In this document: positions 11,336 to 25,535 of the stretch, in pieces
Numbering within the stretch: position 1 is the stretch's first letter
How the letters are laid out: each line of letters opens with the position of its first letter
Assembly: GCF_900105175.1 (NCBI RefSeq)
Contig: NZ_LT629771.1
Location: forward strand, 5,350,501-5,414,500
Length of the DNA stretch: 64,000 bases
Direction: 5' to 3'
From: Jiangella sp. DSM 45060
Lineage (GTDB): Bacteria; Actinomycetota; Actinomycetes; Jiangellales; Jiangellaceae
Made by a program: the position numbers and the translations under genes
The notes under the pieces: model-generated
Told to the model about the DNA's origin: nothing
Seen by the model: only the letters and a program-made list of their open reading frames with translations
Database searches by the model: none

Positions 11336-12301
11336 TCAGTCGACCTGGATCCGCTCGAGCGTCGCGAGCGGACCGATCACGGTCGCGTCCTGGACGATCG
11401 GCGGCTCGTCCTCGGTGGTGAGACGGTGCCCGGCGCTCAGCCGCATGGTGTCGGTGCCGGCGGGAACCGTGCCGATCACGAGGTGCGCGTCGCCGCCGGC
11501 CGCGGCGTCGGCGACGAGCTCCAACGGGTACTCCACCTCGTCGACGAACACGCTCGCGCCCTCGACGACGGCTGCCACCTGCACGCCGTCGTGGGCGTCG
11601 TCACCGACGGGGAGGAGGGTGCCAGGACGCGTCACGAAGCGGCCCTCGACCCACACCTCGCCCTCGGGCGCCCATCCGCGCTCGGGCAGGTACCCGACCA
11701 GCCGCAGCTCGGCCAGGACCGCCGCCTGCACCATCGGGTACCAGCCCGCCGGCGGCTCGATCGCCGCCTCCAAGGTCCCCGCCCAGGGGACCGTCTCGAT
11801 GAACGGAGACCCGCCGACGAGATCGGCCGTCACCACCGGGACCACGGCATCACGACCCTCGAAGGTGAGCACCAGCTCGGCGTCGCCGCCGTCGCCGGGC
11901 AGGACGGCGACCTGCGCCCCGGCGCCCGCGGGATCGAGCTCGACCGGGACCTCGGTGTCGCCCGCCCGCAGCATCACCTGCGTGCGGCCCGGCGCCCAGT
12001 CACCGACGTAGCCGCCGTCGGACACCGAGACCTCGACGAGGACGGCGCCATCCGGCGCGCGGACGGTCTCACCGTCGACGAACGCCTCATCCCGCACGCC
12101 GAGCGCCTCGACGAGGTAGACGCCGTCGGGCATGCGCACCGCCACCCGCTCGTCCAGCAGGTCGACGCCGGAGGAGAAGGCGGCGTCCCCCACCGGGATC
12201 GTCGCGCCCGCGGGCGCACAGCCGGCGAGCAGAGCAGCGGAGACGAACAGGACGACGCCGGCGGCCTCGCGACGGCGGCGGCCTGGAGAGAGCGGGCTCA
12301 T
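11336..12301 (-). CDS. Predicted lipoprotein of unknown function
   Basis: 321-residue protein with an Arg-rich n-region, a hydrophobic core and a lipobox (ALLAGC, Cys about residue 28), so it is expected to be exported and lipid-anchored. The mature part is acidic and beta-rich with repeated DG-turn strands (MPDGVYLVEALG, ADGAVLVEVSVSD-like). I do not recognise the family. It follows the TetR stop by only 4 bases and is surely co-transcribed. The ATG overlaps no ribosome site of note, so translation is probably coupled to TetR. Confidence 0.75.
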   Translation of the reverse strand: MSPLSPGRRRREAAGVVLFVSAALLAGCAPAGATIPVGDAAFSSGVDLLDERVAVRMPDGVYLVEALGVRDEAFVDGETVRAPDGAVLVEVSVSDGGYVGDWAPGRTQVMLRAGDTEVPVELDPAGAGAQVAVLPGDGGDAELVLTFEGRDAVVPVVTADLVGGSPFIETVPWAGTLEAAIEPPAGWYPMVQAAVLAELRLVGYLPERGWAPEGEVWVEGRFVTRPGTLLPVGDDAHDGVQVAAVVEGASVFVDEVEYPLELVADAAAGGDAHLVIGTVPAGTDTMRLSAGHRLTTEDEPPIVQDATVIGPLATLERIQVD

Positions 12302-12305
12302 GTCC

Positions 12306-13007
12306 TCATGATCCCGAACGGTCGCGCAGCCGGTCGAGGCCGTCGAGGACGAGATCGAGGCCGAACTCGAACTCGGCCTGGTCGTCGCACCAGCCCAGCG
12401 TCGAGCCGGGGTCGTCGTGCGCGATCTCGGCCAGCATGCCGGCCAGGTGCGGCAACTGCTCGGCCAGCCCGGCCAGGTCCTCGGGCGCGGCGGCGCCGTC
12501 ACCGGGGTCGAACAGTTCCTGGCTGAAGCCGAGCGCCCGGCTGCCCAGCGCGTGCAGCGCGTGGTGGCCGAGGTCGTAGGAGAACCCGCCGTCGCGCATG
12601 AGGCCGAGCAGGCGGTCGTGGTAGCGCAGGATCTCGGGGCTCATCGCCGCGCGGGTCTCGAGCACCGACGGCGCCCACGGGTGGCGCAGCAGCACCTGGC
12701 GGGCGGTGAGGATGCGGCGCCTGACGGCGTCCTTCCACCGCGCACCCTCCGACCCCACCTCGAGCGCGTCGACCGCCTCGTTGATCTCCCGCGCGACGAC
12801 GTCGGCGATGCCGTCGAGGACCTCGTCCTTGTTGGCCACGTGGTAGTACAGCGACATCGCCTCGGCGCCCAGCACCTCGGCCAGCCGCCGCATGGTCAGC
12901 GCCCCCAGACCCGCGTCGTCGGCGATGCGCACCGCCGCGCGGAGGACGCGGTCGCGGCTCAGCGGGGCCCGGACCGGGCCCGCTTCGGCATCGGCCGCCA
13001 CGTGCAT
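12306..13007 (-). CDS. TetR-family transcriptional regulator (TetR_C domain)
   Basis: 233-residue repressor. The N-terminal HTH (AAVRIADDAGLGALTMRRLA then LGAEAMSLYYHVANKDEVLD, about residues 25-65) is the form found in the tetracycline-repressor-like class with a TetR_C ligand domain. The C-terminal half is all-helical. ATG at 13007 has GAGGTG next to it and clears the upstream marR stop by 25 bases; an upstream in-frame start at 13064 would overlap marR and seems less likely. It probably forms a transcript with the marR gene above and the lipoprotein below. It is the best candidate to bind the tandem operator before the MDR gene. Confidence 0.85.
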   Translation of the reverse strand: MHVAADAEAGPVRAPLSRDRVLRAAVRIADDAGLGALTMRRLAEVLGAEAMSLYYHVANKDEVLDGIADVVAREINEAVDALEVGSEGARWKDAVRRRILTARQVLLRHPWAPSVLETRAAMSPEILRYHDRLLGLMRDGGFSYDLGHHALHALGSRALGFSQELFDPGDGAAAPEDLAGLAEQLPHLAGMLAEIAHDDPGSTLGWCDDQAEFEFGLDLVLDGLDRLRDRSGS

Positions 13008-14627: not shown

Positions 14628-17600
14628 CTACCCTGCGGCGTCCACCCCCTGGAGCACGGGCCGCCCCAGCGACGCGGAGAACGTCCAGACCGAGTCGAAG
14701 TCCCAGCCCATGGCCGCGTACGTCGCCTGGGTCGCGGCCTCGGCGGCGGTGCGGGTGGCGCCGTTCAGGGTGTCCGGCCCGGTGGCCGGCACCGACTGCG
14801 TCCGCGCGTCCACCGTCTCCGACGCGGCGTTGCCGATCAGCGTCGCGGTGTTCCCGGCCAGGACGCGGGCGACGACGCGGTGGGCGTAGCCGGTGGCGAC
14901 GACGCGGGAGTTGAGCGCCATGCTGTCGCGCAGCGTCGTCCCGGTGTAGGCGTAACCGCTGATCCCGCCCGCGTTGGCGTTGCCGACGACCTCGACGTGG
15001 CCGGTGGCGTAGGTGCGCTCGGTCAGCGAGCCGGCGCCGGTGATGCCGGCCACCCCACCGGCCTGGCGTCCGGCGACGGCGTAGACGGCGGCGGTCGAGT
15101 AGCTGTCGCGCAGCTGCCCGTACGAGTACCCGACGACGCCGCCGACGGTCGAGCCGCCGACCATGAGGCCGGACGTCGTCACCCGCTCGACGACGCCGCG
15201 GCTGGTGTCGGCCAGGATCCCGACGTTAGCGCCGGCGGTCTCGACCGCGGCGCCGTCGACGGCCAGGTCGTGCACGCGCCCGCCCGCCGCGATCAGCGGG
15301 AACAGCCCGCCCGACGACGACGTGAACCCGGTCAGCCGGTGCCCCGCGCCGTCGAGCGAGCCGGAGAATCCGGTCCGTGCGACGGCGAGCCCGGGATGCC
15401 CGCTCAGGTCGAGGTCGGCGGCCAGCCGGTACGCCGCCGACGGGAACGCGGTGAGCTGCCCGAGGTCCGCGGCGGATGACACCAGGTAGGCGCCGTCGGT
15501 GTCGCGCGGCAGCGACGGAGTCCCCGGCTCCCCCGTGCCCGGCGGCACGTCCTCCGGCACCGACCGCAGCACCGGCCGGTGCCCGTCCGCGGACCAGGCC
15601 CAGACGGCGTCGAGGTCCCAGCCGAGCGTGTCGCGGAAGAACGCCGGGTCCCGCACCTGCGCGGCCGTCGCCGTGGCGCCGGCGAGGTTGTCCGCGGCCG
15701 GCGGGTCGAGCACGGCGGGCACGTCGGCGACGACGCCCTCGGCCGCCCAGTTGTCCGACAACGACGCGGTGTTGCCGGCCAGCACCCGGCCGAGCACGCG
15801 GTGCGCCCAGCTCGGCGCGGTCACTGACGGGTTCAGGGCGACGGAGTCGCGCAGCACGGTGCCGGTGTAGCCGTAGCCCGCGACGCCGCCGGCGTTGCGG
15901 GTCGACGCGCCCACCGGCCCGGCGGCGTAGACCCGTTCCGTCGTCGACCCGGCCAGCGCCACCCCCACGACGCCGCCGGCCTCGGTGCCGTAGCTCTGCA
16001 CGCGCGCCGTGGAGTACGCGTCGCGCAGCACGCCCGCGTTGTCGCCGACGATGCCGCCGGCCCGCGAACCGGCCGTGACCAGCCCGGTGGTGTAGACGCG
16101 CTCGACGGTGCCGGTGTTGGTGTCGGCCAGGATGCCGCCCCGCGCGGTCGCCGTCGCGACGTCGGCGGCGACGATCGCGAGGTCGTGCACGGTGCCCGCG
16201 TTGCCGCCGATCAGCCCGCCGGTCGTGCTGGTGAGCCCGGTCAGCGTGTGCCCGTCGCCGTCCAGGTCGCCGGAGAACGCCTCGACCCGCGCGACGACGC
16301 CGGTGAGGTCGAGGTCGGTGGTCAGCCGGTACGACGCGGCCGGGTCGGTCCCGATCTTGGCGAGGTCGTCGGCGGAGTCCAGCAGGTACGGGTCCTCGGC
16401 GGTCCCCGAACCGGCCAGCCCTTCCTGCAGGACCACGGCCGGACGCAGCTCCTCGTTCTTGCGCGGGCTGTCCCAGAAGTGCACCCGCACCGTGTCGTGC
16501 GCGCCCGCGGTCAGCGGCGGGTCGAACGCGACCCACTGCTCGGCGCCGCGCTCGTCGAGGTCCACCTCGACCACGCGGGCGTCCAGCACCTCGCCGCCGG
16601 GGCCGGAGCGGACCGCCTCGACGGTGACCGCGCGCGGCGCGCCCGGGTAACTGATCAGCCCGACCCCGTCGAGCGCCGCATGGCTGACGTCCCACGATCC
16701 CGACGGCCGCGCCAGCACGGCCTGGTCGACCAGCCGGCCGTCCATCGCGTACGTCGACAGCTCCAGGCCGCGCCGGGTCGCCTGCAGCGCCGTCCCCTGC
16801 TGGGCGGAGGCGCCGAGCGCGAGGAACGTGACGCCGTCGACCTCGGTGCGGGAGTGGACCTGGTCGTGGCCGCCGACGTAGAGGTCGACGCCGAGCCGGC
16901 TGAACAGCTCCGCGACCTGCTGCCGCCGCGCGTTCTGGCCCGGCCGGGGCGTCCCCGCGCTGCCGAAGAACGACTCGTGCCCGACGACGACGGTCCACGG
17001 CTTGCTCGCGGCGTGGACATCATCGACCAACCAGTCCAGCTGGGCGTCGAGGTCCTGCGTGGTGTTGAGGACGACGACGTGCACGTCGCCGCGGTCGAAC
17101 GAGTACGCCGTCTCGCCGATCGGCCCGCCGCCGGGCAGCGCGTACATGCTGGACGTGATCGCGTTGCGGTCCGGCGAGACCAGGTTGTACTCCAGGTCGC
17201 CGTCGCTCTCGGCGTCGCCCACCACAGGCGCGACCTGCAGGTCCAGGCCCGCGTAGACATGGTCGAAGACGTCCTCCCAGTACTCCCGGTGCACGCCGCG
17301 GGCGACGAGGTCGCCGGTCTGCACGACGGTGTCGCCGCCGGGCGCCCGGTCCCGGATCGCGTCCAGCGCGCCGCGCCAGTGCCCGGAGCCGAGCAGGTAG
17401 ATCGGCCGGTTCTGCTTCCCACCGGCGACGAACGAGCCGCGCACGTCCGACCACGCGGCCTCGTCCGTCGCCCGCGGCGCCGCGCCGTCCACCGCGACGC
17501 CGAAGCGGTACTCGTAGCGGGTGGTGTCGCGCAGGCCGGTCAGCGCGAACTCGTGGCTGCGCAGCGGCTGGCCGGTGACGGTGTCCTGGTAGACCTCGCC

Positions 17601-19241
17601 GGGCTTGCCGATGGTGTTCAGCTCGTACGTCGTGTCGCCGGTGGACGTCAGCACCGGGGCGCTGCGCCAGGTGCGGTGCCCGGCCGGGCGGACCTGCGCG
17701 TACACCGTGCCGACGGTCGCGTCGGTGCTGACGGCGATACCCGCGGTCCCGGGCTCGGCGCCGACGGTCGCGACGCTGCCGAAGAACTGGAAGACGCCGG
17801 CCGGGTCGGCACGTTCCTGGTCGACCTGGAGGCGCAGCAGCTCCGAACCGATGTTGCCGGCGCCGTCGGCGGCCTTCACGACGACGACGTGGTCGGAGTA
17901 GCCGCGCACGGTGAACGTGCCGTCCTCGACCGGCACCACGCCGTTGTCGTCCCACACGTCGTAGGTGACGGCGGGGGTCTCGCCGCTGTCGTCGGTCGCG
18001 GTCGCCGTGGGCAGCGCGACGGTGTCGCCGTAGGCCACCGTCGTGGGCGCGGCCGGGTCGACCTCGATGACCGGCGCGTAGTCGGCGCCGCGGGTGGTCT
18101 CGCCGACCCAGACCGGCGCGGACACGATGACGTCGCCGTCGGCCTGCGTGGCCACGATGTAGAAGTAGTCGCCGTCGGCAGCGGGCAGCTCCGGCGTCAC
18201 CCGCACCGACCGGCCGGACACCGCGGGCGCCTCGTACGCCACCGCGCCGTCGTTCGTGCGCACCCGCACGGACGTGAACGCGTCGGCGTCGTCGGGGTCG
18301 GTGAGCCCGATGTCGAGCGCGACCGAGGTGGTGTCCGCCGGCAGGATCGAGCCCATCAGCCGCCCGTTCGCGCCGAACTCGAGCCTGGTGTTCACGTCCT
18401 GCGTCGAGTACATGCTGCGCTCGCGCATCGCCCGGTAGACGCCGTCGCGGCTCTTCTCCGCGGCCCACACGCCGGTGATCGACTCGTCACCGGTCACCCA
18501 GTTGGCGCTGTGCTCGTCGCCGTTCCACACCGGCGCCAGGTGCCAGCCCTTGTCCAGCGCGATCTGGAACTGGGCCAGGTTGGTCGCGTTCTTCACCTCG
18601 ATGAGGTCGATGCGGTCGTCGACCTCGGGGTCGAGGTGCGCGAAGGCGGCGAAGTCGCCCTTGCCGGCCGGGTCCGGGTGGTTGAACTGCGCGATCGCCT
18701 CGGGGTCCTGCTTCAGCCGGGCGTAGAACGTCGGCAGGTCGTACTTGAGGTCGCCGGTCGCGGCGCCGAACGACAGCGAGTCGCCTTCGCTTCGCGCCGT
18801 CGTGAACCAGTCGGTGTTGAACAGGTTCATGTGGCCCGAGGTGTCGTACCAGGTGATCTCCTCGGCCGGGAGCGTCACCAGGTCGTCCTGCTCGGCGTTG
18901 AACGCGTCGGACTCCTCGTGCAGGTAGCGCCACTCGTCCGACACGGCGTCGCGCCAGTCGGCGGTGAAGTCGTCGCTGTTGCGCCGGTCGTAGAGCACGT
19001 CGTGCTCGGACACCGTGAAGAAGTCGGCGTCGCTGTTCTCGGCGACGTGCTCGAACGCGTCACGCGGCGTCTCGACGCCGTCGCTGACCTCGGTGTGCGC
19101 GTGGAACTCGCCGGTGTACCAGGTCCGCCCCAGGTAGGACGGCCGCTCCTCCTCCGCCCGTGCCGGTAGGGCGGCCGCGGAGACGGCCAGCACCAGCGCG
19201 GCGGCCAGCGGGACGGGGACGGATCGGGCGGAGAGCGACAC
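14628..19241 (-). CDS. Giant secreted PHP-domain / metallophosphoesterase-like / GLUG-repeat protein
   Basis: 1537-residue exported protein. The GTG start is chosen because GAGGAG lies just upstream and a clean signal peptide (AALVLAVSAAALPARA) follows. Domains in order: a CehA/McbA-type PHP domain (GEFHAHTEVSDG about residue 45, then SEHD and FNHPDP); an Ig/fibronectin-like middle; a calcineurin-type phosphoesterase domain (QTGDL about 640, GHESFFG, GGHDQVHS about 790); then two copies of a GLUG-repeat beta-helix module (about 950-1200 and 1250-1530). The phosphoesterase site is degenerate: the leading D-x-H is GSGHW and the GNHE motif reads GDAE. The PHP ligands look intact. Substrate binding by the GLUG repeats and a surface or extracellular location are inferences. 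No sortase signal or terminal anchor is visible. Confidence 0.85.
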   Translation of the reverse strand: MSLSARSVPVPLAAALVLAVSAAALPARAEEERPSYLGRTWYTGEFHAHTEVSDGVETPRDAFEHVAENSDADFFTVSEHDVLYDRRNSDDFTADWRDAVSDEWRYLHEESDAFNAEQDDLVTLPAEEITWYDTSGHMNLFNTDWFTTARSEGDSLSFGAATGDLKYDLPTFYARLKQDPEAIAQFNHPDPAGKGDFAAFAHLDPEVDDRIDLIEVKNATNLAQFQIALDKGWHLAPVWNGDEHSANWVTGDESITGVWAAEKSRDGVYRAMRERSMYSTQDVNTRLEFGANGRLMGSILPADTTSVALDIGLTDPDDADAFTSVRVRTNDGAVAYEAPAVSGRSVRVTPELPAADGDYFYIVATQADGDVIVSAPVWVGETTRGADYAPVIEVDPAAPTTVAYGDTVALPTATATDDSGETPAVTYDVWDDNGVVPVEDGTFTVRGYSDHVVVVKAADGAGNIGSELLRLQVDQERADPAGVFQFFGSVATVGAEPGTAGIAVSTDATVGTVYAQVRPAGHRTWRSAPVLTSTGDTTYELNTIGKPGEVYQDTVTGQPLRSHEFALTGLRDTTRYEYRFGVAVDGAAPRATDEAAWSDVRGSFVAGGKQNRPIYLLGSGHWRGALDAIRDRAPGGDTVVQTGDLVARGVHREYWEDVFDHVYAGLDLQVAPVVGDAESDGDLEYNLVSPDRNAITSSMYALPGGGPIGETAYSFDRGDVHVVVLNTTQDLDAQLDWLVDDVHAASKPWTVVVGHESFFGSAGTPRPGQNARRQQVAELFSRLGVDLYVGGHDQVHSRTEVDGVTFLALGASAQQGTALQATRRGLELSTYAMDGRLVDQAVLARPSGSWDVSHAALDGVGLISYPGAPRAVTVEAVRSGPGGEVLDARVVEVDLDERGAEQWVAFDPPLTAGAHDTVRVHFWDSPRKNEELRPAVVLQEGLAGSGTAEDPYLLDSADDLAKIGTDPAASYRLTTDLDLTGVVARVEAFSGDLDGDGHTLTGLTSTTGGLIGGNAGTVHDLAIVAADVATATARGGILADTNTGTVERVYTTGLVTAGSRAGGIVGDNAGVLRDAYSTARVQSYGTEAGGVVGVALAGSTTERVYAAGPVGASTRNAGGVAGYGYTGTVLRDSVALNPSVTAPSWAHRVLGRVLAGNTASLSDNWAAEGVVADVPAVLDPPAADNLAGATATAAQVRDPAFFRDTLGWDLDAVWAWSADGHRPVLRSVPEDVPPGTGEPGTPSLPRDTDGAYLVSSAADLGQLTAFPSAAYRLAADLDLSGHPGLAVARTGFSGSLDGAGHRLTGFTSSSGGLFPLIAAGGRVHDLAVDGAAVETAGANVGILADTSRGVVERVTTSGLMVGGSTVGGVVGYSYGQLRDSYSTAAVYAVAGRQAGGVAGITGAGSLTERTYATGHVEVVGNANAGGISGYAYTGTTLRDSMALNSRVVATGYAHRVVARVLAGNTATLIGNAASETVDARTQSVPATGPDTLNGATRTAAEAATQATYAAMGWDFDSVWTFSASLGRPVLQGVDAAG

Positions 19242-19565
19242 CTGCGACTCCTCGGGACGGACGGCGCGAAACGGCACGAGACCGTCCGCCACCGTGCCCG
19301 GCCCACATGACCGGCGCCTGGTGTCCGCGACGACGGCAGGTGACCAGCCGGTGAACTACCGGCCGGTAGACCCCCGGCCCGGCCGGTGATCGACAACTCC
19401 GAAAAGTGTCCGAATTGTGGGCCAACATTTCGGACGCGTAACGATTCCGGGCCGTCACGCAGCGTGTCGATCATGTCAAGAAGCGACGAAGGCGCAGCTC
19501 AATGCGGCTGACCCTACTCATGGAATGCAGCTACGAGATCGTCACGGCATGGCCGGCATAGCTCA

Positions 19566-19600: not shown

Positions 19601-19615
19601 AGAGGTTGGACCACT
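19601..19615. promoter_or_regulatory. GntR-type operator, copy 2
   Basis: AGAGGTTGGACCACT matches AGAGGT-N3-ACCTCT at 11 of 12 arm positions and ends just before the ribosome site of the first operon gene. As arms of one larger structure, this and copy 1 also form a 12-bp inverted repeat. Confidence 0.6.
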
Positions 19616-19626
19616 TGGAGAAGCCG

Positions 19627-20829
19627 ATGCAGAAACCAGGCGTGCGCTACCGGGGCTACCGCAGTTTCGACTACCTCGAACCGCACACCGACTTCCGCGT
19701 CTTCGACCTCGCCCAGGAGATCGGCCGCGTACCGGCGTACGACCTCGGGCTGGACGAGGAGCAGACGCGGCGGGTGACGGAGATCCTCGGCCGTGAGCAC
19801 GTCATCTCCCTGCACGAGCACCCGAAGATCCTCACGACGGACCCGACGCTGCTGAAGGAGTACAACGGCACCGGCCGCAACGCCTTCGGGTTCGAGGGGA
19901 TCGCCCGGTCGGGCATGACCGCGTTCTTCGACAACTTCATGAACGGCACCAACACCGTCACGTCGGAGCACGGGTGGAAGTGGAACGACGTCGTCTTCGA
20001 CCTCGGCCTGCGCTTCGCCGACGTCGCGCAGCAGGACCACGTCGTCCTCGCGCGCACCGTCGCGGACCTGGAGAAGGCCAAGGCCGAGGGGCGCATCGCG
20101 ATGATCGCCGGGCTCGAGGCCGCGACCGCGATCGAGAACGAGCTGGACCGCCTCGACATCCTCTACGGGCTCGGCGTGCGGCAGATGGGCATCGCCTACT
20201 CGATGGCCAACCAGCTCGGCGCCGGGCTGGCCGAGCCGCAGGACGGCGGGCTCACGCTGTTCGGCGGCCGCGCCGTCGAGCGGATGAACACGCTCGGCAT
20301 CGCCATCGACATCTCGCACTCGTCGGACCGCACCAGCCGCGACGTCATCGAGCGATCGTCGGTGCCGGTGTTCATCACGCACGCCGGCGCGCGCACGGTC
20401 TGGCCGACCAACCGGATGAAGCCCGACGACGTCATCGTCGCCTGCGCCGAGCGGGGCGGCGTCATCGGCATCGAGGCGGCGCCGCACACGACGCTGTCCG
20501 AGCAGCACCCGGAGCACTCGCTGGAGTCGGTCATGGACCACTTCCAGTACTGCGTCGACCTGGTCGGCATCGACCACGTCGCGTTCGGGCCCGACACCAA
20601 CTTCGGCGACCACGTCGGGCTGCACGACTCGTTCACCGGGCATCTCAGCATCGCCGGCGCGCACGGGCACGTGGACCATCCGCGGGTCCCGTACGTCGCC
20701 GGCGTCGAGAACCCGGCGGAGAACTTCACCAACATCGTCGGCTGGCTGGTCAAGCACGACTGGTCCGACGACGACATCAGCAAGGTCATCGGTCTGAACA
20801 TCCTGCGCGTACTCAAGGAGGTCTGGTGA
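19627..20829 (+). CDS. Peptidase M19 family dipeptidase, paralogue 1
   Basis: 400-residue membrane-dipeptidase (renal dipeptidase) family protein, somewhat longer than the usual 320-370. Candidate binuclear-zinc ligands are visible in order: His in ISLHEH, the bridging Glu in IAGLEAA, His in ISHSSD, His in ITHAGAR and Asp in FGPDT. No signal peptide is present, so it acts in the cytoplasm. M19 enzymes cleave dipeptides and tolerate a D-residue at the C-terminal position. ATG is chosen because GGAG lies 6 bases upstream; a TTG frame extends to 19606 but overlaps the operator. First gene of the operon; its stop overlaps the receptor gene as GTGA. About two-thirds of positions look identical to the second M19 at the operon's end. 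Confidence 0.9.
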   Translation: MQKPGVRYRGYRSFDYLEPHTDFRVFDLAQEIGRVPAYDLGLDEEQTRRVTEILGREHVISLHEHPKILTTDPTLLKEYNGTGRNAFGFEGIARSGMTAFFDNFMNGTNTVTSEHGWKWNDVVFDLGLRFADVAQQDHVVLARTVADLEKAKAEGRIAMIAGLEAATAIENELDRLDILYGLGVRQMGIAYSMANQLGAGLAEPQDGGLTLFGGRAVERMNTLGIAIDISHSSDRTSRDVIERSSVPVFITHAGARTVWPTNRMKPDDVIVACAERGGVIGIEAAPHTTLSEQHPEHSLESVMDHFQYCVDLVGIDHVAFGPDTNFGDHVGLHDSFTGHLSIAGAHGHVDHPRVPYVAGVENPAENFTNIVGWLVKHDWSDDDISKVIGLNILRVLKEVW

Positions 20830-22475
20830 AGGGCACGATCGGACACATCCGCAAGGCCGGCGCGGCACTCGCCGTCGCGGCACTCGTCGCGACCGCGGGC
20901 TGCTCGCTCAACGAGGGCGGCGGCGAGTCCGCCGGCGGCTCGAACGACGGTTCGGGCGAGCAGGCCGGTGGCGCCACGCTGCGCATCGGCACGACGACGG
21001 ACATGGAGAACTTCAACCCGCTGCAGTCGCTCTCGAAGACCGACAGCTGGATCCTCAACGCCACCTACCCGACGCTGCTGCGCATCGACGGCAACGCCCA
21101 GAAGGTGCCGGAGCTGGCCGAGGAGTACACCACCGAGGCCGACGGCAGCGTCGTCGTGTTCCACCTGCGTGACGACTTCGAGTGGTCCGACGGCACGCCG
21201 GTGACGGCGAAGGACGTCGCGTTCACCGCCCAGGCGATCATGGACTACCAGCTGGGCAACGTCGCGGCGAAGCTCACCTGGGTCACCGGCATCGAGGTGC
21301 GCGACGACCAGACCGTCGCGTTCACGCTGAGCGAGCCGTACGCCCCGTTCGCCGAGGGCGTCGGGTTCTGGATGCGGATCGTGCCCGAGCACATCTTCAG
21401 CCAGGTCGGCGACGTCTCGCAGTTCGCCAACGACGCCGACTGGGTCGGCGCCGGCGCGTACATCCTCGACTCCGCCACCAAGGGCCAGCGGTACACCCTG
21501 AAGGCGAACGAGAACTACCCGTACGCCCCCGAGGGCGGCGCCGCCGTCGAGACCGTCGAGTACGTCGTCTACCCCGACGTCAACACGATGATCCTGGCGC
21601 TGCGCAACGGCGACATCGACCTCATGGGCACGCCGGTCCCGGTGTCCGCGGTGGCCTCGCTGGAGACCGAGGAGAACATCGAGGTCGAGACGGTCGGCTC
21701 GCTCGGCTTCGCGCACCTCACCTACAACATGCAGAACCCGGTGCTGGCCGACCAGGCGGTGCGGCAGGCGCTGTCGATGGTCGTCGACAGCAAGTCGATC
21801 ATCGAGACGATCCTGCAGGGCGACGGCCAGGAGATGGTCGGCCCGATCTCGCCGATCTTCGCCGACTACGACAACACCGACCTCGAGGCGTACCCGTTCG
21901 ACCCCGAGGGCGCCCGCGCGCTGCTCGAGGGCGCCGGCTACACCGACGCCAACGGCGACGGCATCCTCGACGACCTGGCCTTCGAGATGGTCTGCGACCA
22001 GTCCAACGCCAACCTCACCCGGGTGGCCGAGGTGGTCCGCGACGACGCCGCCGAGGCGGGCATCCAGATCGACCTCGCCTGCATCGAGCGGAACACGTTC
22101 CTCAGCCGGACCCGCGGCGGCGAGTACGACATCGACCTGTCGCAGTGGGGCGTCTTCGACAACCCGATGGACCAGCTGCGCAGCACCTACCTGTCGTCCA
22201 ACCCGGGCGGGATCAACTACAACCTGGTCGCCGATCCGGAGCTGGACGCCCTGGTGAACGACGCCGCGGTGACGGCCGACCCGGACCAGTTCGTGGAGAA
22301 GATCAAGGGCATCGACGCCTACGTGCACGACCAGGCGCTGCTGACCCCGCTGTACGTGGAGAACTTCCGCTTCGCGTACCGCGGTGACCGGTTCACCGGC
22401 TTCGACCCGTCGCCGTCGGACCTGCTCGGCATGGTCACCGGCTACTCGCTGTCCCAGGTCACGACGGTCGACTGA
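20826..22475 (+). CDS. ABC transporter substrate-binding lipoprotein, peptide/nickel (SBP_bac_5) family
   Basis: 549-residue receptor with a lipobox (VATAGC, Cys about residue 26), then a Gly/Ser-rich linker and the family-5 fold: LRIGTTTDMENFNPLQS, FHLRDDFEWSDGTPVTAKDV, and QAVRQALSMVVDSKSI. The length suits Dpp/Opp receptors. It captures the operon's substrate outside the cell and hands it to the two permeases downstream. The GTG overlaps the M19 stop, with AAGGAGG in front. Substrate is unknown; association with two dipeptidases suggests a small peptide or amide-linked compound. Confidence 0.93.
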   Translation: MKGTIGHIRKAGAALAVAALVATAGCSLNEGGGESAGGSNDGSGEQAGGATLRIGTTTDMENFNPLQSLSKTDSWILNATYPTLLRIDGNAQKVPELAEEYTTEADGSVVVFHLRDDFEWSDGTPVTAKDVAFTAQAIMDYQLGNVAAKLTWVTGIEVRDDQTVAFTLSEPYAPFAEGVGFWMRIVPEHIFSQVGDVSQFANDADWVGAGAYILDSATKGQRYTLKANENYPYAPEGGAAVETVEYVVYPDVNTMILALRNGDIDLMGTPVPVSAVASLETEENIEVETVGSLGFAHLTYNMQNPVLADQAVRQALSMVVDSKSIIETILQGDGQEMVGPISPIFADYDNTDLEAYPFDPEGARALLEGAGYTDANGDGILDDLAFEMVCDQSNANLTRVAEVVRDDAAEAGIQIDLACIERNTFLSRTRGGEYDIDLSQWGVFDNPMDQLRSTYLSSNPGGINYNLVADPELDALVNDAAVTADPDQFVEKIKGIDAYVHDQALLTPLYVENFRFAYRGDRFTGFDPSPSDLLGMVTGYSLSQVTTVD

Positions 22476-22518
22476 CCGTCCGTCCACGTCCACTCATCGG
22501 GAGGGTGGGTAGCACACC

Positions 22519-23472
22519 GTGTTGAGGTATGCCGCGAGTCGGCTGTTCCGCGCGATCCTGACCATCTGGATCGCCGTGACGGTGACGTTCTTCCTGCTGC
22601 GGCTGCTGCCGGCGGACCCCACCCTCCTGGTGGTGGAGGGCGACATGACCCCGGAGATGCAGGACGCGCTCCGGAGTCAGTACGGCCTGGACAAGCCGAT
22701 CCTCCAGCAGTACGTGCTCTACCTGGGCCAGCTGGTCCAGGGCAATCTCGGTGTCTCGTTCCGGCAGCTGGTGCCGGTCAGCGAGCTGCTGCTGAACCGG
22801 CTGCCGTGGACGCTGCTGCTGGCCGGCTCGGCGTTCGTGCTGACACTGCTGATCGGCATCCCGCTCGGCGTGAAGGCGGCCGTCGGCCGCGGCGGCATGG
22901 TCGACCGCGCCGTGCAGTTCTTCGGCATCACGTCGAACGCGCTGTTCATCCCCAGCGTCGCGATCCTGCTGCTGGTGGTGTTCGGGTCGAACCTCGGCTG
23001 GTTCCCGATCGGGCAGGCCATCGACCCGGACACCCGCGGGCTGGCCGCGTACGTCTCACTGCTGCACCATCTGGCGCTGCCGTTGTTCTCGCTGGTGCTG
23101 GTCCAGCTCGGGCCGTACGCGCTGACGCTGCGGACGAACATGGTCGAGGTGCTCGGTGAGGACTACATCACCAGCGCCCGCTCGCGCGGGCTCACCCACC
23201 GCCGGGTGGTGTGGCGGCACGCGCTGCGCAACGCGGTGCTGCCGGCGCTGATGCTGATGGGCCTGCAGCTCGGCACGCTGATCGGCGGCGCCGTGCTGAC
23301 CGAGACGGTGTTCGCCTATCCGGGCGTCGGCCGGCTGATCTTCGAGTCGGTGCAGCAGCTGGACTTCCCGGTGCTGCAGGGCGCGTTCGTCATCCTCGCG
23401 GTGACGGTGGTGCTGGCGAACCTGCTCACCGACCTGCTCTCGATGGTTCTCAACCCAAGGATCCGCACATGA
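22519..23472 (+). CDS. ABC transporter permease, DppB/OppB type
   Basis: 317-residue membrane protein with six predicted helices. The DppB N-terminus is present (LFRAILTIWIAVTVTFFLLR, then LPADPT), as is the EAA-loop that contacts the ATPase (SARSRGLTHRRVVWRHALRN). It forms the translocation pore with the next gene's product. GTG start with GAGGGTGG about 10 bases upstream. Ends as an ATGA overlap with the partner permease gene. Confidence 0.93.
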   Translation: MLRYAASRLFRAILTIWIAVTVTFFLLRLLPADPTLLVVEGDMTPEMQDALRSQYGLDKPILQQYVLYLGQLVQGNLGVSFRQLVPVSELLLNRLPWTLLLAGSAFVLTLLIGIPLGVKAAVGRGGMVDRAVQFFGITSNALFIPSVAILLLVVFGSNLGWFPIGQAIDPDTRGLAAYVSLLHHLALPLFSLVLVQLGPYALTLRTNMVEVLGEDYITSARSRGLTHRRVVWRHALRNAVLPALMLMGLQLGTLIGGAVLTETVFAYPGVGRLIFESVQQLDFPVLQGAFVILAVTVVLANLLTDLLSMVLNPRIRT

Positions 23473-24356
23473 GCACCGAGCCGCAGTCCCTCGTCGCCGA
23501 CCCCCAGGCGGCGGTGCTGACCAGCACCCGGCGCCGTCGATCCGGAGGCTTCTTCTCCGCGCCGTCCGGCTGGCTGTCCGTGGGCGTGCTGGCGCTGTTC
23601 GCGCTGGTCGCGATCTTCGGGCCGCTGTTCGTGGACTCTCCCAGCGGCCTGGGCACCGACATCCTGCAGCCGCCGTCCGCGTCGCACTGGTTCGGCACCG
23701 ACGACCTCGGCCAGGACGTGTTCGCCCAGGTCGTGTGGGGCACCCGGATCAGCCTGCTGGTCGGGGCGGTGGCGTCGCTGATCGCGATCTGCATCGGCAC
23801 GCTGCTGGGCCTGGCCGCCGCCTACGTGAAGCGGCTGGACCCCGTCGTCACCACCGCCACCGACGTCATGCTGTCGCTGCCGATGCTGCCGCTGATGATC
23901 CTGGTGACGGCGCTGGCCGGGCCGAGCGTCGTCACGCTGATCACCGTCATCGGGCTGCTGTCGTGGCCCGAGGTGACCCGGATGATCCGGGCGAACGGGC
24001 TGGTCGTCGCCGCGATGCCGTACATCGACGGCGCCCGCGTGCTCGGCGCCGGCGCGTCGCGCATCATCTCCCGCGAGATCCTGCCCGCGGTCATGCCGCT
24101 GGTCGTCGTCAACGTGCTGCTCACCGCGGCCCGCGCGGTCATCGCCGAGGCCGGGCTGTCGTTCCTCGGCATGGGCGACCCGTCGTCGTGGTCGTGGGGC
24201 CGCATCCTGCTCAACGCGCAGCGCTCCGGGACCATCGCGTCGGCCTGGTGGCAGACGCTGTTCCCGTCGCTGGCGATCCTGCTGCTCGTGCTGGCCGCGA
24301 CCATCGCCGGCATCCGCTACAACGACTCGCGCGACCCGCGCACCCGAGGAGTGTGA
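23469..24356 (+). CDS. ABC transporter permease, DppC/OppC type
   Basis: 295-residue partner permease. Its hallmark sequences are SHWFGTDDLGQDVFAQVVWG, the EAA-loop IDGARVLGAGASRIISREIL, and SFLGMGDPSSWSWGRIL near the C-terminus. Six membrane segments are expected after a cytoplasmic Arg-rich N-tail (TRRRRSGG). ATGA overlap with DppB; the next gene begins four bases after the stop. Confidence 0.93.
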   Translation: MSTEPQSLVADPQAAVLTSTRRRRSGGFFSAPSGWLSVGVLALFALVAIFGPLFVDSPSGLGTDILQPPSASHWFGTDDLGQDVFAQVVWGTRISLLVGAVASLIAICIGTLLGLAAAYVKRLDPVVTTATDVMLSLPMLPLMILVTALAGPSVVTLITVIGLLSWPEVTRMIRANGLVVAAMPYIDGARVLGAGASRIISREILPAVMPLVVVNVLLTAARAVIAEAGLSFLGMGDPSSWSWGRILLNAQRSGTIASAWWQTLFPSLAILLLVLAATIAGIRYNDSRDPRTRGV

Positions 24357-24359
24357 CCC

Positions 24360-25535
24360 GTGCACCTGCCCGACTCGTTCTACCTCGGTGCGCTCGACCG
24401 CGTGGTCGAGCGGCTCGGCGCCGACGGCCACGACGGCCTCCTGGTCACCCATCCCGCCGACGTCGCCTACCTCGTGGGGTTCTGCTACGCGGTCACCGAG
24501 CGCCCGGTGTACCTGTGGATCGGCGCCGACCACGACCGGTTCGTGCTCGTGCCCGAGCTGGACCGCGAGTACGCCGAGCAGCAGCGCATCCACGCGCCCG
24601 TCCAGACCTACTTCGAGTACCCCGGCGTCACCAGCCCCGAGGAGATCCTGGGACAGTTGCTGCGCCACCGTGGCCTCGGCTCGGCCCGCATCGCCTACAC
24701 GTCGTCGATCTCGGTCGGGACGTTCGACCGGCTGCGCGGCGAGCTGCCGGACGCCACCTGGACGACGACGGACGTCGTCGCCGGGCTGCGGCTGACCAAG
24801 GCGCCGGAGGAGATCGCGCTGCACCGGCAGGCCGCGGACATCTGCGACTCCATGCTGGCCGCCGGCCGCGCCTACATCGAGGACGCCATCGCCGCGGGCG
24901 GCGAGCTGCCCCGCGAGGGCGAGATCGCCCGGCACGTCATCGGCCACGGCACCGACCTCGTCTACCAGCGCTACGACCACGTGGTGTTCACGACGAAGCT
25001 GGCCGGCGGGCTTGTTTACGCCGGGCCGAACGCCGCCAACCCGCACGGCCTGCCCAGCAGCCGCCGGCTCCAGCGCGGCGACACGCTGATCCTGTCGCTC
25101 GGCGCGGCCGTGCTGAGCCGGTTCGTCGAGAGCGAGCGGACGTTCGTCATCGGCGAGCCGAGCGCGGACCAGCGCCGCTACTTCGAGACCGCCCGCACCG
25201 CGCAGCACGTCGGCACCGAGGCCATGCGCGTGGGCCGCACCTGCGCCGACGTCAACGCCGAGTGCCTCGGCGTCATCCGCGACGACGGGCTGGGCGAGTA
25301 CCTGCGGCACCGTCAGGGCCACGGCATCGGCGTGCAGCAGCACGAGGCGCCGTGGGTCGAGGACGGCGACCCGACGCCGCTGGCTCCCGGCATGGTGCTG
25401 TCCAGCGAGCCGGGCGTCTACGTCCCCGGCCACGGCGGCTACCGCATCTCCGACACCGTGCTGGTCACCGACGACGGTCCCGAGCGGCTCACCACCTACC
25501 CGCGCACCCTCGAGGAGAACGTGATCCCGGCATGA
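24360..25535 (+). CDS. M24-family 'pita-bread' hydrolase, creatinase-like (metal ligands lost)
   Basis: 391-residue protein with a creatinase/prolidase N-domain followed by a pita-bread domain. The five metal ligands of true M24 aminopeptidases are largely replaced. The first two Asp positions read ILSLG and ESERT, and the last Glu reads RISDTV, while His (RQGHGIG) and one Glu (SSEPG) remain. Creatinase, a metal-free amidinohydrolase of this family, shows the same Asp-to-Ser (ILSLN) and LERT pattern, as far as I recall it. So it is more likely a metal-independent C-N hydrolase than a prolidase. It is cytoplasmic. Substrate unknown; it presumably acts on the imported compound. ATGA overlap with the next gene. 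Confidence 0.8.
   Translation: MHLPDSFYLGALDRVVERLGADGHDGLLVTHPADVAYLVGFCYAVTERPVYLWIGADHDRFVLVPELDREYAEQQRIHAPVQTYFEYPGVTSPEEILGQLLRHRGLGSARIAYTSSISVGTFDRLRGELPDATWTTTDVVAGLRLTKAPEEIALHRQAADICDSMLAAGRAYIEDAIAAGGELPREGEIARHVIGHGTDLVYQRYDHVVFTTKLAGGLVYAGPNAANPHGLPSSRRLQRGDTLILSLGAAVLSRFVESERTFVIGEPSADQRRYFETARTAQHVGTEAMRVGRTCADVNAECLGVIRDDGLGEYLRHRQGHGIGVQQHEAPWVEDGDPTPLAPGMVLSSEPGVYVPGHGGYRISDTVLVTDDGPERLTTYPRTLEENVIPA

Follow-up and report, generated by a model that had tools for sequence, protein, structure and literature searches.

Can a chain that carries two hydrolase-like domains have kept one of them as an enzyme and converted the other to a different use? This question is raised by a long gene of Jiangella sp. 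DSM 45060, whose genome (G000 in our numbering) is a single contig of 7,485,957 bases. The gene lies in the window, by which we mean the whole stretch of 64,000 nucleotides of contig NZ_LT629771.1 analysed in this work. The original prediction described one chain with a PHP domain, a degenerate phosphoesterase domain and two GLUG modules, and suggested that one of the domains may be a pseudo-enzyme. Profile matches and inspection of the motifs confirmed the combination. In our opinion it is fairly probable that the gene encodes a predicted secreted PHP hydrolase, whose metallophosphoesterase (MPE) domain has turned, in a group of genera including Jiangella, into a non-catalytic structural or binding module.

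Gene and domain organization

The gene is covered by a single open frame (14628-19292, minus strand), and the residue numbers used here are counted from 19292, not from the GTG at 19241. This GTG, which had been given as the start, is likely to be the start codon, because GAGGAG stands 6 bases before it and the arrangement is kept in the three relatives examined. The product has 1537 residues, a mass of about 160 kDa, a pI of 4.5 and no cysteines, and, as judged from its N-terminus, is probably secreted. A PHP domain of the CehA/McbA type is followed by a beta-rich linker, a fibronectin-III (Fn3)-like domain, an MPE domain resembling purple acid phosphatases (PAPs) and two GLUG modules:

14628..19241, minus strand: whole gene, 1537 amino acids from the GTG at 19241; the open frame extends to 19292
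19248..19253, minus strand: GAGGAG, probable ribosome-binding site; GAGGAG also precedes the aligned GTG in L070, L071 and L073
19155..19241, minus strand: signal-peptide-like N-terminus, a hydrophobic stretch with ARA at its end, judged by eye
18105..19121, minus strand: PHP domain of CehA/McbA type, residues 58-396, NCBIfam match
17808..18080, minus strand: beta-rich linker, residues 405-495, Ig-like from its strand pattern only, no family match
17418..17801, minus strand: Fn3-like domain of PAP type, residues 498-625, from a Pfam PF16656 match (E 0.0039, which falls below the cut-off of that family) and a structural match
16743..17405, minus strand: MPE domain, degenerate, residues 630-850
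15528..16421, minus strand: GLUG module 1, residues 958-1255, beta-solenoid
14643..15488, minus strand: GLUG module 2, residues 1269-1550, beta-solenoid, 51% identical to module 1

The domain originally called calcineurin-like does belong to the MPE family: Pfam Metallophos matches residues 648-810 (E 5.4e-9), the match starting at profile position 24, and at position 2 in the three intact relatives scanned. To this assignment the preceding Fn3-like domain has to be added, as the two domains together align to PAPs. The structure prediction that had been proposed as a check gave a good model of the GLUG modules and a poor one of the PHP-MPE part (residues 48-960, mean pLDDT 63.8). The Fn3-MPE part of the latter aligned to the sweet potato PAP 1xzw with a Z-score of 26.5, an rmsd of 3.8, 321 aligned residues and 18% identity (model residues 448-817, corresponding to query residues 495-864), and 13 of the 14 sequences returned by a PDB search with the MPE profile were PAPs. 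The succession of Fn3-like and MPE domains is thus an arrangement common to our protein and the plant PAPs (1xzw, 1kbp; Z about 26 over about 320 residues). Around the MPE site model confidence falls below 50, in the segments 615-632 and 645-681 of the model (query residues 662-679 and 692-728), and the fold may have substitute ligands elsewhere, or a one-metal remnant.

The PAP fold of the Jiangella MPE domain is shared by the Plasmodium protein GAP50 (Z 18.5 over 221 residues), the organism and the setting of which are different. According to passages of the review PMC8949495, GAP50 serves as a membrane anchor, and a study cited there reported that it has acid phosphatase activity. By analogy, GAP50 can be taken as a precedent for a PAP fold in a non-phosphatase role, though not as a clean pseudo-enzyme.

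Pfam Glug recognized one stretch only (27.4 bits, cut-off 20.5), yet the proposal of two tandem modules was correct, as can be seen from the identity between residues 958-1255 and 1269-1550. The C-terminal 600 residues model as two beta-solenoid modules with a mean pLDDT of 87.9. Their best structural match is 3n6z, a putative IgA1 protease (E 5.6e-9), followed by IgA1 proteases. By sequence, no PDB entry matched the profile of the GLUG modules (E up to 0.01). The modules have the beta-solenoid fold of the GLUG-type domain of IgA1 proteases (3n6z, 7uvk, 6xja). Unlike these enzymes, the Jiangella protein has no protease family match, and in its family the solenoid occurs in two or three copies, as counted in the homologues in which one frame extends to this part.

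Active-site motifs of the MPE domain

After removal of duplicates, 23 proteins including the query were compared, 22 of which have the PHP domain. They fall into 13 proteins with an intact MPE domain (from Asanoa, Nocardioides, Nonomuraea, Microtetraspora, Cohnella and two further genomes) and ten with a degenerate one, the latter being all the proteins of Jiangella, Haloactinopolyspora and Actinopolymorpha. The motifs of the query are the following:

17376..17390, minus strand: remnant of motif I, GSGHW, residues 635-639; GDxQ plus 11 more residues in intact relatives
17304..17315, minus strand: motif II GDLV, residues 660-663, D661 kept
17208..17219, minus strand: motif III GDAE, residues 692-695, replacing GNHE
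16977..16982, minus strand: motif IV GH, residues 771-772, H772 kept
16860..16874, minus strand: motif V GGHDQ, residues 807-811, replacing GxHDH; H809 kept, second His lost

The MPE domain contains GSGHW and GDAE just as the original prediction quoted them, and both motifs that it declared missing are missing. The degeneracy goes beyond this claim, since a third motif is also lost (GHDH has become GHDQ), and GSGHW marks the border of a deletion of 11 residues rather than a mere substitution. With Ala at position 694, Gln at position 811 and the motif I Asp gone, the domain has neither the His of GNHE nor the complete two-metal site of a catalytic phosphoesterase. A passage of PMC12999176 lists five PAP motifs (DxG, GDxxY, GNH[DE], VxxH and GHxH) with seven ligands. 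Compared with this set, even the intact members of our family are without the Tyr of motif II and a DxG-type motif I, and the query lacks in addition the Asp of motif I, both Asn and His of motif III and the second motif V His; its motifs read, after the motif I Asp lost with the deletion, GDLVA, GDAE, VVGH (kept) and GHDQ.

All 13 intact proteins have Asp and Gln in motif I, Asp in motif II, Asn, His and Glu in motif III, His in motif IV and two His in motif V. The catalytic His and one metal-ligand His are absent from all ten degenerate proteins: motif III has Asp followed by Ala, Gly or Thr, and motif V has Gln, Glu, Asp or Asn in place of its second His (in Haloactinopolyspora motif V was read in the second frame as GGHDN, its frame-one cells being meaningless because of a frameshift). 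The motif I Gln is also changed to Ala or deleted in all ten. The motif I Asp is kept in seven and replaced in three, namely in the query and in the proteins of two other Jiangella genomes, G004 and G001, with 11 residues deleted. About 20 residues that follow motif V are missing from these three as well, and a 13-residue loss preceding this one is shared by them with J. muralis, J. endophytica and G009. An alignment artefact or sequencing error as the source of the degenerate motifs can be rejected, because ten proteins of three genera share them and the motif I deletion is present in three Jiangella genomes.

By PAP chemistry, we take the motif III His to be the general acid. D661, H772 and H809 are kept in all proteins compared, and D693, in place of Asn, in all ten degenerate ones; together these residues correspond to the complete second metal site of PAPs, the first site being lost. 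Relative to a plant PAP, the degenerate domain could be described as having its first metal site destroyed and its second persisting with Asp for Asn.

Occurrence of the PHP-MPE combination

A scan of contigs with residues 45-900 found 16 loci in eight genera (Jiangella, Haloactinopolyspora, Actinopolymorpha, Asanoa, Nocardioides, Microtetraspora, Nonomuraea and Cohnella). In a class-level search of 393 genomes, 51 had any match, ten (the own genome included) had a single match that covered positions 4-750 of 856 or more, and in one further genome only the second half matched. In a phylum draw of 396 genomes, searched with the Asanoa homologue, 61 had some match, and among the matches listed both domains were in one match only in the own genome. 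Judged from these counts, the combination is patchy, not common. Its constituent domains are known families; no paper on PHP combined with a PAP-like MPE domain was found among the best matches in the open-licence PMC literature, and the combination is without characterisation in the literature searched. The refuting case that the original prediction had allowed for, a common and characterised architecture, did not turn up in these searches.

In seven of the eight genera the GLUG solenoids follow the PHP and PAP-like domains; the Actinopolymorpha protein ends after the MPE domain. The homologue of Cohnella, a member of the Bacillota (L074:9884-16801), is about 50% identical and has C-terminal SLH domains in three stretches, which suggests cell-surface attachment in that organism. 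Two copies are interrupted, either in reality or by sequencing error: that of Nocardioides alcanivorans (L083:9800-16473) is split over two frames, one with PHP and the other with the remainder, and that of Haloactinopolyspora alba is frameshifted near residue 794 (L084, about 12180-12330).

The chain was not found in four of the 12 Jiangella genomes (G002, G005, G007 and G011, some of which are many-contig drafts). In G009 (L055:8208-8357) the end of a peptide-binding-protein gene directly abuts residue 411, with neither PHP nor the intervening dipeptidase gene left; the loss of everything before residue 411 looks like a deletion running from the transporter gene. Not found in some relatives and truncated or frameshifted in others, the gene can be regarded as dispensable.

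In the window, the gene is adjoined at 19606-25535 by divergent genes for an M19 dipeptidase, a peptide-binding protein, permeases and an M24 peptidase, which look like an operon for dipeptide uptake and cleavage. The families of nine window neighbours are dehydrogenase, TetR, MarR, M19, SBP_bac_5, permease and M24, two being without a match. The dipeptidase and dipeptide-transport genes are kept wholly or partly in G001, G004, G008, G009 and G010. Dipeptidase and transport genes were not found beside the gene in G003, G006 and the other genera, in stretches of 16-23 kb, with the exception of 38-42% permease matches near the edge of two Nocardioides stretches. Among the 17 stretches compared, the neighbours shared across genera are scattered matches of regulators, transport ATPases and short-chain dehydrogenases, large families as judged by eye, and one further match between wrong-strand frames. 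In these stretches the neighbouring genes gave no functional clue.

The same genome encodes a 2179-residue protein (G000:C1:725497-732033; L058:5498-12034) with two GLUG modules, a PAP N domain, an intact MPE domain, a LamG-like domain and a second Metallophos stretch. Like the query, it combines two GLUG modules and a PAP-like MPE domain in one chain; it differs in the reversed order, intact MPE motifs, the extra Metallophos stretch and the lack of a PHP family match. Near full length, this paralogue was found only in G000, G003 and G018 among 15 genomes searched. The idea that it compensates for the lost MPE activity was rejected, as its presence does not track the loss.

Phylogeny of the degenerate proteins

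To place the loss, we used a tree of the 22 PHP domains, which excludes MPE, the domain bearing the trait, and omits Jiang_G009 and the larger frame of Nocardioides alcanivorans, both without PHP. The nine degenerate proteins in it form one side of a branch with a support of 100/100. The degenerate trait needs one change on this tree, and 7.3 on average when the labels are shuffled. The root is the midpoint; we infer that the intact MPE domain is ancestral, i.e. that activity was lost rather than gained, because the intact motifs are those usual in the superfamily. The sharing of the losses by Actinopolymorpha suggests that the catalytic residues disappeared before the degenerate genera diverged. 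On the same tree Cohnella is placed with Asanoa (support 90/90), which points to a transfer of the gene between phyla.

The three carriers of the motif I deletion (the query, G004 and G001; MPE regions of the window, L056 and L057) are not a clade on the PHP tree, thus a strictly stepwise history of the Jiangella deletions was not borne out. The MPE domains of G004 and G001 are 92% identical, and 80-84% identical to those of J. muralis and J. endophytica. Because of this similarity and the disagreement of the deletions with the PHP tree, the deleted form of the domain may have been exchanged between Jiangella strains instead of being inherited stepwise.

Constraint on the MPE domain

Of the alignment columns that do not vary among the intact proteins, the number conserved in every degenerate protein compared was 54/125 in MPE, 123/165 in PHP, 32/45 in Fn3, 54/67 in GLUG1, 53/67 in GLUG2, 20/30 in the linker and 17/29 after MPE, the share being the lowest in MPE (Haloactinopolyspora was omitted throughout, Jiang_G009 for PHP and Actinopolymorpha after MPE; the larger frame of Nocardioides alcanivorans was left out for PHP, where the smaller one was used, and for the linker). 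The ratio of MPE to PHP distances was 1.97 times higher in seven Jiangella than in 12 intact proteins (column bootstrap 1.51-2.78). The equivalent values were 1.75 for the linker, 1.30 after MPE, 0.90 for Fn3, 0.84 for GLUG1 and 0.71 for GLUG2; these ratios omit Jiang_G009, Haloactinopolyspora, Actinopolymorpha and Nocardioides alcanivorans.

The dN/dS values come from eight Jiangella and five intact pairs, which share sequences and are not independent. In Jiangella, MPE had dN/dS of 0.33-0.56 in all eight pairs, PHP 0.13-0.25 in seven (G009 being without PHP), and the linker 0.33-0.90, at least equal to MPE in seven of the eight. In the five intact pairs the values were 0.08, 0.11, 0.26, 0.36 and 0.49 for MPE and 0.17-0.47 for PHP, thus in two of the five (0.36 and 0.49) MPE reaches the level of most Jiangella pairs. 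Selection on the Jiangella MPE domain, with dN/dS below 1, appears to be relaxed, not absent, and still purifying. By the column counts and distance ratios MPE is the most changed region, yet not the only one, as the linker is nearly as much affected. Taken together with the comparison of ten degenerate with 13 intact proteins and with the tree, this reduced constraint argues well for the pseudo-enzyme proposed originally, with the qualification about the linker.

Two other explanations deserve consideration at this point. It is conceivable that the MPE domain is not dead, but has a one-metal site formed by D661, D693, H772 and H809, used for structure or catalysis. All four residues are the same in the ten degenerate proteins (the last one in Haloactinopolyspora by way of the second frame), and the change from Asn to Asp keeps a possible ligand. 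However, the catalytic His is gone from all ten, other conserved columns near the motifs changed too, and the keeping of three columns would be expected in about 8% of cases at the background of 54/125 if columns are independent, which makes it weak evidence. We regard a one-metal site as unlikely, and it overlaps with our main reading if the metal is structural.

Alternatively, the domain might simply be decaying toward loss in a gene that is nearly dispensable as a whole. The faster change of MPE, its loop deletions, the relaxation of the linker and the relatives in which the gene was not found, truncated or frameshifted would all fit such a decay. Against this, MPE dN/dS stays within the above range in every Jiangella pair, the full-chain frame is open in the query and six other Jiangella proteins, and the losses held in common with Actinopolymorpha suggest that catalysis was lost early and the domain is still present. 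Decay therefore has, in our judgement, a similarly small chance of being the right explanation. We consider it rather improbable that the protein is a two-enzyme secreted chain, whose second enzyme has become, in a conversion traceable through living species, a one-metal, non-phosphatase binding domain positioning a polymeric substrate for PHP. The reading which we prefer is still that of a non-catalytic MPE module beside a working PHP hydrolase.

The PHP domain

The claim of an intact PHP site stood as far as residue conservation is concerned, and received no structural support. Positions H64, H66, D71, H97, E145, H154, H205, D259 and H261 do not vary among the 22 proteins with a PHP domain, the query included. 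Eight of these positions are also invariant, and the ninth nearly invariant, in an alignment of 16 diverse members, among them ten distant CehA-like proteins (23-28% identical). We take these positions (HxH, D, H, E, H, H, DxH) to be the PHP metal-ligand set. PHP is also the slowest-changing of the seven regions, in the degenerate and the intact group alike. In the structure model long stretches of PHP are unreliable: the listed segments with pLDDT below 50 cover 163 of its 339 residues, and the listed fold-search matches span only model residues 452-818, outside the PHP part. PDB sequence searches with the single protein (E up to 0.1) and with the PHP profile (E up to 0.01) found no match.

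The NCBIfam profile CehA_McbA (NF038032) matches residues 58-396 with 85.1 bits, above the cut-off of 80. Actinopolymorpha scored 80.9 bits, and the three intact homologues scanned scored 73.4, 75.2 and 77.1, below the cut-off; the edge of the CehA/McbA family therefore passes through this group of proteins. We infer that the domain is a metal-dependent hydrolase of the CehA/McbA type, as the Jiangella PHP passes the cut-off of these metallohydrolases (carbaryl/carbamate hydrolases) and has the ligand pattern of its distant relatives. Passages of the review PMC8292978 state that four His residues of a CehA are important for activity and that the characterised CehA enzymes act on carbamate pesticides. 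Unlike the enzymes described there, the Jiangella protein is a multidomain chain, predicted to be secreted. That PHP is also non-hydrolytic and the whole molecule a surface or adhesion protein, as the resemblance of the solenoids to part of IgA1 proteases and the SLH domains of the Cohnella homologue might suggest, is very unlikely in view of the nine conserved ligand positions and the slow change of PHP in both groups.

Possible function and significance

By analogy with its family, the PHP domain would be the working catalyst, most likely cutting an ester or phosphodiester bond. In the wider family the PAP-like MPE domain would be a second catalyst, which perhaps removed a phosphate exposed by the PHP cut; that the two once acted one after the other on a phosphodiester is an attractive possibility. 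The MPE domain of the Jiangella-Haloactinopolyspora-Actinopolymorpha group has lost both His and Asn of motif III and the second motif V His, and three Jiangella proteins have in addition lost the motif I Asp with its loop. Between the PHP head and the GLUG solenoids the domain may have been retained as a non-catalytic part, for structure or ligand binding, and the solenoids would serve as a binding or spacing stalk, holding or extending. A role of MPE in substrate binding, as proposed originally, is plausible. The same can be said of the suggestion that the protein acts on a large extracellular polymer or surface, to which the signal-like N-terminus, the IgA1 protease-like GLUG modules and the SLH domains of Cohnella point.

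The pairing of PHP with a PAP-like MPE domain, present in eight genera, is a domain combination without characterisation in the literature searched. As intact and degenerate MPE domains occur in the same chain beside an unchanged PHP domain, the route from enzyme to putative pseudo-enzyme can be read from these proteins and is testable. The motif V His, like the His and Asn of motif III, is missing throughout the group, and only some Jiangella have also lost the motif I Asp and further loops.
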